NCBI GenBank assembly: GCA_016906335.1
Contig: JADEYG010000012.1
Span: 124,001-188,000 of the forward strand
Length of the DNA: 64,000 nucleotides
From: Novakomyces olei
Lineage: Eukaryota > Ascomycota > Novakomycetes > Novakomycetales > Novakomycetaceae
Reading direction: 5' to 3'
This document shows, in pieces, positions 42,799-51,042 of this stretch. Under the pieces are notes generated by a model. The model saw nothing but the letters and a program-made list of their open reading frames with translations, had not been told where the DNA came from and did not search any database. The stretch's first letter is position 1, and each line of letters begins with the position of its first letter. A program made the position numbers and the translations under genes.

Positions 42799-44133
42799 AT
42801 GACAGAGGCAGAGAATCGTCCAAGCGTGTCCCTACCAAGCGGAAAGCCTGTCTTTGCACTTTACTATCTAAGCCAGGCCCGTTCTTATATGGTGCTTACT
42901 CACGATGCAATGATCCGTGCCTGCTGCTTTGATATTGTTGACGCCTTATCACTCGGCGTTAGCGGGTTCGCCTTGGCTGTAGAGTCAGGAGAGCCATCGG
43001 AGAGAGTTTTCTTGGAAGCAATGTACTGTGCGGCCGAGATGGTCTCCTCTTTAAATCATACTAAAAGCTCTTCAGTCAGAGGCAATTCGTCCTTTGTAAT
43101 ACTAGTTTGTATACTACACAGCGCCTTTTCTTTACTCGGCAACGAGCAAGCGCTCGAGGATTGTGTTGTGAGAAACGCAATGTCAAAAGTACAGTACAGG
43201 TGCCGTCGGCGTCGGGGCCGTCGGCGAGAGAAGGCACAGCAAGAGCATCTTGCTGGCCAGCCTTTGCTTTATATTATACGTGACCCGCTACACAGACAGG
43301 AGGCAAATGCGAAAAGTATACGACGCTTGACCACGAAACTGGCACACAAGGACGCGGCAGTTTTAGCGTTGGACGATAGCCTTTTGAGCCTAGACACCGA
43401 CAACGATGAAGTAGTACGCATTCTTAAATCTACAGGCTCAAACAAAGATAATTTGTCATTAGAATCCGAGATGGCACAGCTGTCGCAACGTGGAATCCGC
43501 CTAACTCTTTGTGTCGGCACAATCATTGCAGATTCACAAGACCAAGAAGGCAAAACTGGACAGAATTTGCCAAAAGGCAGTTTCAGTACAAAGTGGGCCA
43601 CTTGCCTACGAGTCAAACCGCACAGAGTGTTACTGATGAGCTGGAACGGCTTCGAACAGGGCGATTACTTGTGTCCAAGGCTGAATCCCGTACTGGAAGG
43701 TGTACGTACGGCTAATGACTGCTCACTGGTCGACCTGCTCCGACTTTGCCCGCATAATGGGTTTGCTGCTTTGACGAGGAACCTTGTAGCCTGCTTTCGC
43801 GGGATAAAACCTGCTGACAGCCTGGTTTGCATTTACCATCCTTTGCATGTACAGCAGGAGCAACAGCAGTACTTTGTTATTCACTCCTTCACTTTGCGTG
43901 ATATTGCAGCGAGTCTACAACTGGATGATTTTGCCGAGTTTAGGTTTTATTTGCGCGACGGCCAAACATTGCACTTTGTCCCTTTTCCTGCTGGGCTCCG
44001 GCAGGCGTCTGAGATTCGGCTTGTATTGGACACGGGCGAGACGATTACGAGCACTTCTATTGGCCTGGTTCCAAACCTGCCCTTGGTTCGGAACAGTGTT
44101 ACAAGTGCCTGTTGTATACTGCAAGCGGACTAG
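42799..44133 (+). CDS. Protein of unknown function, 444 residues
   Basis: Continuous frame from ATG 42799 (MTEAENRPSVSLPSGKPVF). Globular composition: a helical first 120 residues, a very basic patch (about 130-150, RCRRRRGRRREKAQQ), then mixed alpha/beta sequence with SWNGFEQGDYLCPRLN and YFVIHSFTLRDIAA. I do not recognise the family. The 3' end is uncertain. A possible GTATAC donor at about 44115 and AGCAG acceptor at 44143 would replace the last few residues by a tail continuing to about 44250 (SISDGYKANYIGLYDSG), but that intron would be only about 31 bases, below the shortest one placed here. Confidence 0.62.
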   Translation: MTEAENRPSVSLPSGKPVFALYYLSQARSYMVLTHDAMIRACCFDIVDALSLGVSGFALAVESGEPSERVFLEAMYCAAEMVSSLNHTKSSSVRGNSSFVILVCILHSAFSLLGNEQALEDCVVRNAMSKVQYRCRRRRGRRREKAQQEHLAGQPLLYIIRDPLHRQEANAKSIRRLTTKLAHKDAAVLALDDSLLSLDTDNDEVVRILKSTGSNKDNLSLESEMAQLSQRGIRLTLCVGTIIADSQDQEGKTGQNLPKGSFSTKWATCLRVKPHRVLLMSWNGFEQGDYLCPRLNPVLEGVRTANDCSLVDLLRLCPHNGFAALTRNLVACFRGIKPADSLVCIYHPLHVQQEQQQYFVIHSFTLRDIAASLQLDDFAEFRFYLRDGQTLHFVPFPAGLRQASEIRLVLDTGETITSTSIGLVPNLPLVRNSVTSACCILQAD

Positions 44134-47819: not shown

Positions 47820-48036
47820 TTGAAACGCGATTAGCGTCAATTTATTTTTTGTATATTTTATGTGTAATTTATATCTTTAATTGGCCTCGTACAAATTCCT
47901 TTACGATTCTGATCGGCCAGCCATTCGCGTCAGTATTCGCTCGATACGAGGCTCCAGTGGCGGCGCGCTCGTCGCCCTGACAAGCGCATTTCAGTGCTCG
48001 GCACCTTTGTGCCGCATTGTCTCGTATATTGGCGGT
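47706..48036. promoter_or_regulatory. Promoter of the RNA-repair gene, with (ATT)n
   Basis: An ATT microsatellite of about 14 units (47776-47817) lies 220 bases before the ATG. The frame of the downstream gene stays open back to 47881 without an ATG, so a small N-terminal extension is conceivable only with a non-AUG start. Confidence 0.5.
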
Positions 48037-51000
48037 ATGAAACGTACAGCCGGCGGCAGTGGCAATGGACCAGCCAAGGCCGATAGCGATCCTGCCAGCT
48101 TTGGACCCGTCCGCTCGAACAGCGATGGTTTCAACATCGAAGGCACTCTTCAATCGTACGCCGAGGCAATCGCCAGCGTCCTGCACGAGGCCAATGCTAA
48201 AGTACTCGTGGCAATGGTCGGCGTTAGTGGGTCTGGCAAGTCGGTTCTTACCGCAAAACTACAGCAGCTTGTTCAGCAACAAGAACAACAACAACAACAA
48301 CAGCAGCAGCAGCAGCAGGCGGGAGCGTCTCAAATTGCACCGCCTTCAATCTCCACACAAACCCTAAACCTAGATTTGTACAGGGAACGTGTAAACCAGG
48401 GCAGGTACCCGTCCGGCGATGCCCAACACAAGGCAGTAAACAGCATTGCTGTACCACAATACCTAAAAGATTTGGATTTGGCAGACGCTCAGCTGTTGGT
48501 GGTAGACAACACGAACCTGCGATGGCAAAACGGCCTTCAAGCAGTGGTGGAAAAGGCGGTGCGGGACGGTTACCATCTACTAACCCTAACGGCTCCTTAC
48601 AACAGGTACGGGTTCGTTGCCAGCCGTAGTGGCCATGGTGTCCACGGTGAGCTTTTTGCCAGCCTTGCACAAAACTGGCCCGGGTTCCGTTTCCGCTCGC
48701 TCTTGTTTCGTATGCTCTCTCCTCGAGCACTGACGGGCAGGCAGCCTTTTGATATTCGTGACCGGTTCAGCAAACTGGCTTATTACCAGCAATGGGGCTC
48801 TGCTGGTGTCATCTACGTAATGGACGGGTACCTGGGCTACTTTAACGCTGACATGTTTGACCAGGCAGTTTTACCGGCTGCCTCTATTATGCAAAGTCAG
48901 GGCGCTGGCTCTTTATTTTTGCAAAAGGACGGACTCTTGCACGTTACACTGATCCCTCCAGCAGCAAGAAATAATAATAGTAGTAATAATGATAATAATA
49001 AAAAGGGCAAATCGTCAGTTAATTCTGAATTAAAAGCGGTAGCTCGACAATTGCTCAAGGCTGGCGGTCCTCCAGCGCTTGTCTACTCTGGAGTCTCTTG
49101 TGCGGCAGAGCCAAACGGCAACGAGACCTGGTTTGCTACACTAACGCCGGACAGCCAGGCAGAATGGTGCACAAGAATTGAGGCTGCTTGCAGTGCAGCT
49201 GGCTTTGGTCATGTATTGGGTCCGAATGCCAGTGGTCTGCATGTGACCATCGGGTACAGGGAACGGGACGTTCATGGAATAGATAAACGGGGCCCTCCCG
49301 CATTTGCCTATACTAACCCTAACCCTAACCCTAACGGTTCTAGCTTTATGCCGCCGTTTCGCGGTATTGACAAAGGTGCGAGTCGTCAAGATGTTTTTGC
49401 TGCTGCTAATATTGAGGTGGCCCATTACTTGGCCGCGAAATTACCGGCCATGAATCAAGCGGACGTGGGCCGGCTAGCTCGAGACGATTCGAAACAAGGC
49501 AGCAGCCGTACAGAAGGCCATTCTACAAATGGCAAAGAAGCCAATGGCAGCCGCAGTCGCAGTGCTATAGACCTACAGATCCCTGAACAGCATGCTGCTA
49601 ACATTGCTTATCTTTTACATCACAATAATGTACGGGAAAAAGTGCGTACCGCAGTTTTACAGCCCGGCAATGTACAATACTTGCTCTTGGGATTCCAAGT
49701 AGTGGCCCGCCGGGGCTTAACGATAGACGAGCAAGTCTACAAGCGGGATCCTAGGCTGCAGGCAATTGTCCCCCGTGGCCTGACGTTTGTGTTTCGGCGC
49801 AGTATGGAAAACAATACCGGAAATACCGTTACCCTTGCCGGCCTCGTGTACCCGACGAGTAAGTTTTTCGGTGACAATGATATGGACAATGACGACGTGC
49901 AAGTCGAAACGGATGAGGATCTGCGCTCGGCCGCCGGGGCACAGTCACAGTTTATTGCCACAGAGAAAGTTAATGGGGAAATGTTTACCATATCGTGCCC
50001 TGACAAACTGGCCGATGGCAGTTTTGTATGTGTTTTGGGCAGTAAAAACAATAAATTTGCCTTTGCCATCAAGCTGAACGGGCTCAACAAGACGTGTAGA
50101 GCAGACATACGCCAGGCATTGCAGGCCTACCTGCTTCAAGGCGGCTTGCAGGGGAATTCGCAGCAAAAGCATACAGAACCGTCCAGTTTAAATGGTCCCA
50201 ACTCTAATCAACACGTCAATGGCCATTCTGAATCACAAGACTGGGACTTTGCCGCCGATTTGGAGTGGACAATGAGCAATGTATGGCTGGAAATGTGTGA
50301 TTATTTCTTGAATAGACTGATAGCACTGCCAGAGCAAATGGCGCAAAACTTTCTAGCGCGTCTGCACAAGCACAGGGAGACTGCATGTGGCGAGTACGAG
50401 TCTTATTTGCACGCGCATCTAGTCAAGTTTCCGGACGGGTACAAGAGAGTCCGTTTTTTCGCCCTTACTGGTTACAACGAGGCCGGCGAGCCGGTCATTG
50501 TTACAGAGGCAGAGCGGCTACAGCAACTGCAATGGCTGTCCGACTGTGGCATGGATACTGTTCAGGTTACAAAGATTAGCAGCCGTCGGATGGAGGACGA
50601 TATTATAACGATCAGGCGGGATGTATGGAACCGGCGTGGAGTCGAGGGAGTCGTACTGCTTGTCGTCAAGAACGATCAGGTACAAAAAATGATAAAAATG
50701 AAGACGATCTGGTACGTTGTGCACCGAGGCTTTAGGGAACGGCTGCGCCGGTTTGTTGTGCCCAACAAATCACAAACAAAACAGGCTCCGCAGAAGCAAA
50801 TATCGGCAGAGTTGCAGCAAGTGCTGAATGCTAAGCTCAAGATTTTCCAATTGCAGTCTGACCAGGGAGTGAGGCAGCAGTGGACACGGTACATCGACAG
50901 CCTGAGTGAGTATATTGTGGAAAAAAGGAAGCGCGGTGGTGCTCAGGCACTCGCGCAGGAGTTCAAATATAGATACCCGTGCATGATTGAGAGCGCAGAA

Positions 51001-51042
51001 ATGAAGGCTATCGGCCTGGACGAATTGAACATTAACGACTAG
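48037..51042 (+). CDS. Multidomain RNA-repair enzyme: kinase, 2H phosphoesterase, RNA ligase
   Basis: Intronless, 1001 residues from ATG 48037 (MKRTAGGSGNG). Domains in order: a P-loop kinase with VAMVGVSGSGKS (about 59-70) and VVDNTNLRW (about 155-163), as in polynucleotide kinases; a 2H phosphoesterase pair, HVTLIP (302-307) and HVTIGY (402-407); and a covalent nucleotidyltransferase with motif I TEKVNGE (lysine 644), motif IV EGVVLLV (870-876) and motif V KMIKMK (about 884-889). Together these are the end-healing and sealing activities of a tRNA or RNA ligase, but Trl1 runs ligase-kinase-phosphodiesterase. Low-complexity inserts are a Gln run (80-94), Asn-rich and Lys/Ser patches, and a TNPNPNPN stretch encoded by telomere-like CCCTAA repeats. 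Catalysis is inferred from motifs only. Confidence 0.8.
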   Translation: MKRTAGGSGNGPAKADSDPASFGPVRSNSDGFNIEGTLQSYAEAIASVLHEANAKVLVAMVGVSGSGKSVLTAKLQQLVQQQEQQQQQQQQQQQAGASQIAPPSISTQTLNLDLYRERVNQGRYPSGDAQHKAVNSIAVPQYLKDLDLADAQLLVVDNTNLRWQNGLQAVVEKAVRDGYHLLTLTAPYNRYGFVASRSGHGVHGELFASLAQNWPGFRFRSLLFRMLSPRALTGRQPFDIRDRFSKLAYYQQWGSAGVIYVMDGYLGYFNADMFDQAVLPAASIMQSQGAGSLFLQKDGLLHVTLIPPAARNNNSSNNDNNKKGKSSVNSELKAVARQLLKAGGPPALVYSGVSCAAEPNGNETWFATLTPDSQAEWCTRIEAACSAAGFGHVLGPNASGLHVTIGYRERDVHGIDKRGPPAFAYTNPNPNPNGSSFMPPFRGIDKGASRQDVFAAANIEVAHYLAAKLPAMNQADVGRLARDDSKQGSSRTEGHSTNGKEANGSRSRSAIDLQIPEQHAANIAYLLHHNNVREKVRTAVLQPGNVQYLLLGFQVVARRGLTIDEQVYKRDPRLQAIVPRGLTFVFRRSMENNTGNTVTLAGLVYPTSKFFGDNDMDNDDVQVETDEDLRSAAGAQSQFIATEKVNGEMFTISCPDKLADGSFVCVLGSKNNKFAFAIKLNGLNKTCRADIRQALQAYLLQGGLQGNSQQKHTEPSSLNGPNSNQHVNGHSESQDWDFAADLEWTMSNVWLEMCDYFLNRLIALPEQMAQNFLARLHKHRETACGEYESYLHAHLVKFPDGYKRVRFFALTGYNEAGEPVIVTEAERLQQLQWLSDCGMDTVQVTKISSRRMEDDIITIRRDVWNRRGVEGVVLLVVKNDQVQKMIKMKTIWYVVHRGFRERLRRFVVPNKSQTKQAPQKQISAELQQVLNAKLKIFQLQSDQGVRQQWTRYIDSLSEYIVEKRKRGGAQALAQEFKYRYPCMIESAEMKAIGLDELNIND

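Follow-up and report, generated by a model that had tools for sequence, protein, structure and literature searches.

Background

The tRNA ligase of fungi is generally taken to be Trl1, a potential target of antifungal drugs; animals use RtcB instead. Trl1 carries its ligase, kinase and cyclic phosphodiesterase domains in that order. The Pnkp of Clostridium thermocellum is built differently, with the kinase first, a metallophosphatase in the middle and a ligase of another type, and the Mucorales reportedly have split tRNA-splicing enzymes, i.e., a stand-alone RNL and kinases as separate proteins. Here, we describe a gene from a 64,000-nucleotide (nt) stretch of the Novakomyces olei genome (assembly GCA_016906335.1, contig JADEYG010000012.1, positions 124,001 to 188,000, forward strand; the window) that combines such activities in another order, namely kinase, 2H phosphoesterase and ligase. 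We consider it quite probable, judging by sequence, that it encodes a trifunctional 5'-3' ATP-dependent heal-and-seal RNA ligase that most likely serves as a tRNA-splicing ligase replacing Trl1 and possibly also acts on Ire1-cut mRNA.

Gene, domain order and relatives

The gene and its three domains are located as follows (window coordinates).

48037..51042, + strand: whole gene, kinase - 2H phosphoesterase - RNA ligase, one open frame of 1001 amino acids (aa)
48136..48786, + strand: P-loop domain resembling polynucleotide kinases, spanning about residues 34-250 (approximate border)
48775..49266, + strand: 2H (LigT-like) phosphoesterase / cyclic phosphodiesterase domain, about residues 247-410, border approximate, weak Pfam 2H-SAK match
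49579..51015, + strand: RNA ligase with nucleotidyltransferase core and helical C-terminal domain, residues 515-993

The frame is free of stops from the ATG at 48037 to the stop codon at 51042, and an alternative in-frame TTG start at 47881 would extend the protein to 1053 aa. An earlier interpretation from the letters alone (the sequence-only reading) had listed a set of motifs, all of which we located: GVSGSGKS at residues 62-69, DNTN at 157-160, TEKVNGE from 642, EGVVLLV from 870 and KMIKMK from 884. Its two HVT motifs 100 residues apart correspond to LHVTLIPP (301-308) and LHVTIGY (401-407), with a His-to-His distance of exactly 100. The domain borders it proposed had to be moved: its ligase at 600-940 becomes about 515-993, preceded by the kinase at about 34-250 and the 2H domain at about 247-410.

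One search returned 14 family proteins with 30-38% identity (BLASTP), while a profile search listed 19, of which 11 were new, such that 25 distinct relatives are available in total. They stem from the sources ena, jgi, lgn and src, and none from ncbi, uniref or nr. The profile search omitted P0007 and P0011-P0015, though P0007 and P0012-P0015 stood in its query alignment; thus, the set of members may be incomplete, and these searches do not establish that named genomes lack the family. Our alignment (A1) comprises the window protein and 14 of the 25 relatives (32-40% identity). The relatives left out include P0137, P0138, P0140 and P0144, and the short ones are P0142, P0144, P0145 and P0146. 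Five of the 15 rows start downstream of the P-loop.

The order of kinase, 2H domain and ligase is the same in the window protein and in the 9 A1 relatives that span P-loop to ligase; P0008-P0012 start within the kinase and keep the remaining domain order. The residues that are invariant in all 15 rows include H302, T304, H402, T404, K644, N646, G647, E786, H794, E870, G871, K887, K889, R897 and R900. Since the catalytic residues are conserved across the rows, the motifs are not chance strings. In a family tree of 19 of the 26 members (window protein included), several lineages split deeply and the window protein sits alone on a long branch (2.12), which leaves its neighbours in the tree unsure. 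No relative was confirmed among viral contigs (80 pattern stretches) or prokaryote contigs (93).

Ligase domain

The motifs of the ligase are listed with their yeast Trl1 counterparts (~) and their conservation in A1.

49771..49788, + strand: PRGLTF, residues 579-584, R580~R66; P-R-G-L in 15/15
49852..49881, + strand: PTSKFFGDND, residues 606-615, K609~K86, F610~F87; 15/15, except S in 12/15
49960..49989, + strand: motif I TEKVNGEMFT, residues 642-651, K644~K114, N646~N116, G647~G117; K, N and G in 15/15
50038..50058, + strand: GSKNNKF, residues 668-674, K670~K135; 15/15, F in 14/15
50383..50421, + strand: motif III region ACGEYESYLHAHL, residues 783-795, E786~E184, H794~H193; C784, E786, E788, S789, L791, H792 and H794 in 15/15
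50644..50667, + strand: motif IV EGVVLLVV, residues 870-877, E870~E266, G871~G267; both in 15/15
50686..50751, + strand: motif V KMIKMK and the following RGFRE, residues 884-905, K887~K284, K889~K286, R897~R295, R900~R298, E901~E299; all in 15/15

For comparison with the family ligase, we used 26 of 120 listed Trl1 rows (A3). HHalign aligns the two families colinearly over 336 columns with an E value of 0.0032 and a score of 32.0, where the best of 40 column-shuffled controls scores 23.1. This alignment contains 38 columns that neither family varies; in 22 of them, the two families share the residue, compared to a mean of 0.68 and a maximum of 3 among 116 register shifts. The 22 columns include K114/K644, N116/N646, K135/K670, E184/E786, H193/H794, E266-G267/E870-G871, K284/K887, K286/K889, R295/R897, R298/R900 and E299/E901. 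A single yeast Trl1 ligase also matches the family ligase (E 0.0026), while a single T4 Rnl1 sequence yields an out-of-register alignment (E 0.054). The pattern Kx(D/H/N)G, motifs III-V and the helical LIG-C domain that define Trl1 ligases are all present according to the alignment and the predicted fold. In the predicted-fold comparison, the C-terminal part falls inside the nucleotidyltransferase fold, as the sequence-only reading requires, and aligns across the Trl1-type C-domain too. K644 is the predicted acceptor of adenosine monophosphate (AMP).

The site that binds the RNA phosphate (a sulfate in the structure) keeps its His and both Arg, i.e., H794, R897 and R900 (15/15), which align with yeast Trl1 H193, R295 and R298. 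For Chaetomium Trl1, the excerpted description (PMC6592678) names H227, R334 and R337 as the residues of this site. By number offset, we infer the Chaetomium site to equal yeast R295, R298, H193 and N116, and the phosphate would be the 2'-phosphate.

In Pfam, the sole family over its cut-off on the window protein is PF25536 (DUF7920), which covers the ligase part with 28.2 bits vs. a cut-off of 27. In the relative P0007, it reaches 30.8 bits over profile positions 48-312 of 315. The Trl1 ligase family PF09511 appears below cut-off in P0011 (0.008) and P0007 (0.023). Pfam gives no function for DUF7920, and its name occurs in no paper of the open-licence literature that we searched; it is presumably an RNA ligase domain.

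Kinase domain

Three motifs characterise the kinase domain.

48220..48243, + strand: P-loop GVSGSGKS, residues 62-69; G62, G65, G67 and K68 in 10/10 rows reaching the site
48370..48387, + strand: LDLYRE, residues 112-117, its D-x-Y-R aligned to the D-D-Y-R of T4 Pnkp; D113 and R116 in 10/10 rows
48505..48516, + strand: DNTN, residues 157-160, second kinase motif; D157 and N158 in 11/11 rows reaching the site

The features of a T4 Pnkp-type kinase, i.e., a P-loop kinase fold (here predicted) and a D-x-x-R motif, are both found. The Asp and Arg of the T4 Pnkp motif to which ours align are its catalytic residues.

The sequence-only reading offered two options, a rearranged tRNA ligase or a separate repair system. 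The first could mean that a Trl1 gene was rearranged with its ligase moved from front to back, such that all three domains are orthologous to those of Trl1. In profile comparisons, each domain indeed matches its Trl1 counterpart best (kinase 1.5e-5, ligase 0.0032, 2H 0.02, while off-diagonal pairs range from 0.18 to 0.57), and the alignment over the Trl1-type C-domain fits as well. On the other hand, the family kinase profile (built from 13 of the 15 rows) is nearer to the single T4 Pnkp sequence (E 1.5e-6) than to the single yeast Trl1 kinase sequence (1.4e-4), the D-x-Y-R motif aligns with that of T4 Pnkp, and the 2H family in the relatives, among the matches listed, is 2H-SAK and not PF08302. 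Because only the ligase is clearly Trl1-like while the kinase is nearer to T4 Pnkp, a rearranged Trl1 may be too simple a picture, and we regard it as rather unlikely.

In a viral structure library, a model of residues 34-430 (the kinase-2H part) finds as its best match an uncharacterised Sylvanvirus protein (E 1.4e-6; template modelling (TM) score 0.38 by target), and an iridovirus polynucleotide kinase/ligase matches as well (5.4e-4). End-healing proteins related to this part may thus exist in giant viruses.

2H phosphoesterase domain

The middle domain carries the two HxT/S motifs that characterise the 2H superfamily, in all 15 rows of A1.

48937..48960, + strand: first HxT motif LHVTLIPP, residues 301-308; H302 and T304 in 15/15
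49237..49257, + strand: second HxT motif LHVTIGY, residues 401-407; H402 and T404 in 15/15

The Pfam family 2H-SAK lies below its cut-off on the window protein (E 0.055). Among the matches listed, it occurs at E <= 0.1 in 6 of the 8 relatives scanned and exceeds its cut-off in one (P0014; 27.7 bits vs. 27). The middle domain is thus predicted to be a 2H phosphoesterase from its motifs and from Pfam 2H-SAK in the relatives. In the structure comparison of the kinase-2H model, the listed matches to solved structures cover mainly the kinase part.

A kinase followed by a 2H domain is also the order of the lancelet (Branchiostoma) kinase/CPD and of CNPase in the excerpt of PMC5434554, and the excerpt of PMC3400036 describes BfRNL as a ligase on its own that weakly resembles those of yeast and plants. 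The gene could accordingly have arisen when a CNPase-like kinase/CPD protein was fused to a stand-alone ligase, these being separate proteins in the lancelet. However, there is no Pfam CNPase match on the window protein (E <= 1) or among the matches listed for the 8 relatives (E <= 0.1), which makes such an origin improbable.

Sequence searches of other libraries yielded little. The PDB search with the single protein gave 2 matches, which we rejected as chance matches of a poly-glutamine run. With the A1 profile, 49 matches were found, mostly P-loop proteins and, by name, no RNA ligase or 2H protein. NCBIfam produced generic P-loop families and stray weak matches among the matches listed (best 25 of 62 for P0014).

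tRNA-splicing machinery in the genome

Next, we consider the genome around the gene (assembly of 14.34 Mb in 15 contigs). It encodes a Tpt1 (2.8e-49), an IRE1-type RNase domain (1.2e-43; by eye, the same frame holds kinase motifs) and two subunits of a SEN-type endonuclease. Among 30 tRNA loci (best of 61 matches), 12 lie on contig C6 and 18 elsewhere. ARAGORN reports introns in 4 of these 18. In tRNA-Ala(CGC), tRNA-Tyr(GTA) and tRNA-Lys(CTT) (L034, L036, L037), introns of 20, 14 and 11 nt, respectively, follow directly 3' of the anticodon, and their removal yields a cloverleaf. The fourth, in tRNA-Pro(AGG) (L020), leaves no anticodon stem after removal and is not counted. Since the intronless search model favours intronless genes, these counts give no rate.

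The cluster on C6 is dense (L008, L011, L013, L014, L016-L018, L027, L028, L031-L033), and its tRNAs repeat about 72.3 kb apart (6757/79104, 9060/81408, 21076/93410). C6 is probably the mitochondrial genome, and such repeats are expected for a circle of about 72 kb that was assembled more than once round.

RtcB was not found in the genome by a search whose control was positive in 9 of 14 control genomes, and its domain PF01139 is not among the Pfam matches of the open reading frame (ORF) at E <= 1. Queried with the window protein, the genome yielded no match at E <= 10 other than the gene itself. The yeast Trl1 protein as query, run with no positive control, found no Trl1 in the genome. That is, no canonical Trl1 was found in the search that the sequence-only reading had suggested, which is not proof of absence. 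A DNA pattern for Trl1 motif V gave 2 matches at 3 mismatches (reversed control: 1); both were rejected, as their frames have about 20 residues and the Trl1 profiles find no ligase around them.

Given tRNAs that need splicing, SEN, Tpt1, three predicted activities and no other sealer found, the likeliest role of the enzyme is that of the tRNA ligase. It could instead repair damage, e.g., tRNAs that ribotoxins or stress nucleases have cleaved, with splicing done by another ligase that was missed. Phage and bacterial repair systems such as T4 Pnkp/Rnl1 and Clostridium Pnkp do have the same activities, the kinase is close to theirs, and the Trl1 searches leave a gap: Trl1's three Pfam families were not found in the genome by searches without a positive control, and this family mode also failed to detect PF25536 despite the gene's own match of 28.2 bits, so that a Trl1 of high divergence might have escaped it as well. 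However, yeast Trl1 scores 216-311 bits per Pfam domain, far above this blind zone at 28 bits, such that a copy of the usual kind ought to have been seen, and Tpt1, IRE1 and the SEN subunits were all found by searches of this type. RtcB was sought with working controls, and Tpt1 together with the kept phosphate-site residues fits tRNA splicing. Taken together, we deem such a repair enzyme unlikely. Concerning the two options of the sequence-only reading, the genome context hence favours the tRNA ligase, while its simple form as a rearranged Trl1 is doubtful.

Proposed cycle and points against it

For a tRNA-splicing ligase, the following cycle is conceivable. SEN would cut the pre-tRNA and leave 2',3'-cyclic phosphate and 5'-OH ends. 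The 2H domain (H302, H402) would open the cyclic phosphate to a 3'-OH and 2'-phosphate, and the P-loop kinase (K68, D113, R116) would phosphorylate the 5'-OH. The ligase would then transfer AMP onto K644 and on to the 5'-phosphate before joining the exons, with H794, R897, R900 and N646 holding the RNA end phosphate, taken as the 2'-phosphate. Finally, Tpt1 would strip the 2'-phosphate from the junction. The three activities are assigned by sequence, those of kinase and ligase also by predicted fold; all of the chemistry, the need for a 2'-phosphate and the role in the cell are inferred. A three-domain RNA-repair enzyme with its ligase last, as the sequence-only reading proposed, is backed by the fold comparison of kinase and ligase, by residue conservation and by the relatives of the same order.

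Beside the gap in the Trl1 searches, several observations weigh against our interpretation. The full-length predicted model is middling (predicted local distance difference test (pLDDT) 68, predicted TM score (pTM) 0.51). For the kinase model, Foldseek ranks PFKFB enzymes first (3.2e-4), ahead of T4 Pnkp (7.8e-4), such that the fold alone cannot name the kinase. HHalign probabilities vs. Trl1 are low, i.e., 10% for the ligase and 2% for the 2H domain. None of PF09511, PF08303 and PF08302 is matched by the window protein at E <= 1, which includes the Trl1 ligase family itself, and DUF7920 is among the matches listed for only 2 of the 8 relatives (P0007 over and P0011 below the cut-off). Of 64 Trl1 ligase invariants, the window protein shares 28 and does not keep 36. 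Trl1 H207 is replaced by F808, and H148 (invariant in the 26 Trl1 rows) falls on L742, a residue present in 1 of 15 rows, in a loosely aligned part. In an excerpted report, changing H148 to Tyr blocked HAC1 splicing in cells; the loss of its counterpart thus calls for caution about a role on Ire1-cut mRNA. Lastly, the Tpt1 match contains two in-frame stops, perhaps introns.

In a wider scenario, Trl1 disappeared from the lineage, whose tRNAs, and perhaps a HAC1-type mRNA, would now be spliced by an independently assembled heal-and-seal enzyme made of a Pnkp-like (phage/bacterial) kinase, a 2H domain and a Trl1-like, 2'-phosphate-reading, DUF7920-related ligase. We propose it tentatively, with our doubts somewhat the stronger. 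If true, DUF7920 proteins elsewhere would be unrecognised RNA ligases.

Other features of the window

Within the kinase domain, one further feature was noted.

48286..48318, + strand: poly-glutamine run, residues 84-94, missing from the other A1 rows

The window protein also has low-confidence inserts near residues 425-510 that its aligned relatives lack, and homopolymer runs are present in other ORFs of the window. The gene lies on a contig of 1.39 Mb. Other genes of the window point to a fungus, notably that of the eisosome protein Pil1 (1.5e-57); MED14, ribophorin I, PIG-A and a GARS-AIRS enzyme are encoded nearby. The second subunit of RNA polymerase I (RPA135) scores highest among solved structures with chain 7aoc (S. 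pombe). A 444-aa ORF at 42799-44133 (+ strand) has a weak glycosyl hydrolase 71 match below the cut-off.

Comparison with known systems

Multi-domain heal-and-seal ligases and other layouts are already known. No published fungal protein with the order kinase - 2H - ligase, and no such fusion with a Trl1-type ligase, was found in the open-licence literature searched, which does not prove absence; the architecture may already have been drawn in work on RNA repair systems or on Branchiostoma or Mucorales enzymes. If Trl1 is replaced here, exon joining, although essential, is open to re-invention or rearrangement, and the gene would flag fungi that might withstand a drug against Trl1. Furthermore, a function is suggested for DUF7920, a Pfam domain of unknown function, and the enzyme lends itself well to testing whether it is the ligase (kept His and Arg) that reads RNA ends regardless of domain order.

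Compared to the Clostridium thermocellum Pnkp, the window protein has a 2H phosphoesterase in the middle and a Trl1-like ligase. T4, as far as the excerpted accounts go, employs two proteins (Pnkp and Rnl1) and a phosphatase, while the window enzyme is one protein with a 2H domain. With the Branchiostoma floridae kinase/CPD and BfRNL, it shares the kinase-2H order and the 5'-phosphate pathway given in the excerpts of PMC5434554 and PMC3400036; in a comparison by these descriptions only, the lancelet has separate proteins where there is a single one here. Like Trl1, whose order as quoted by the sequence-only reading agrees with Pfam on the yeast sequence (PF09511-PF08303-PF08302), it has a ligase, a polynucleotide kinase and a cyclic phosphodiesterase on a single chain, where the 2H domain is assigned by motifs and by Pfam in relatives only. 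Unlike Trl1, it does not keep H148 and H207 or match the three Trl1 Pfam families, its kinase is nearer to T4 Pnkp, and its ligase comes last instead of first.

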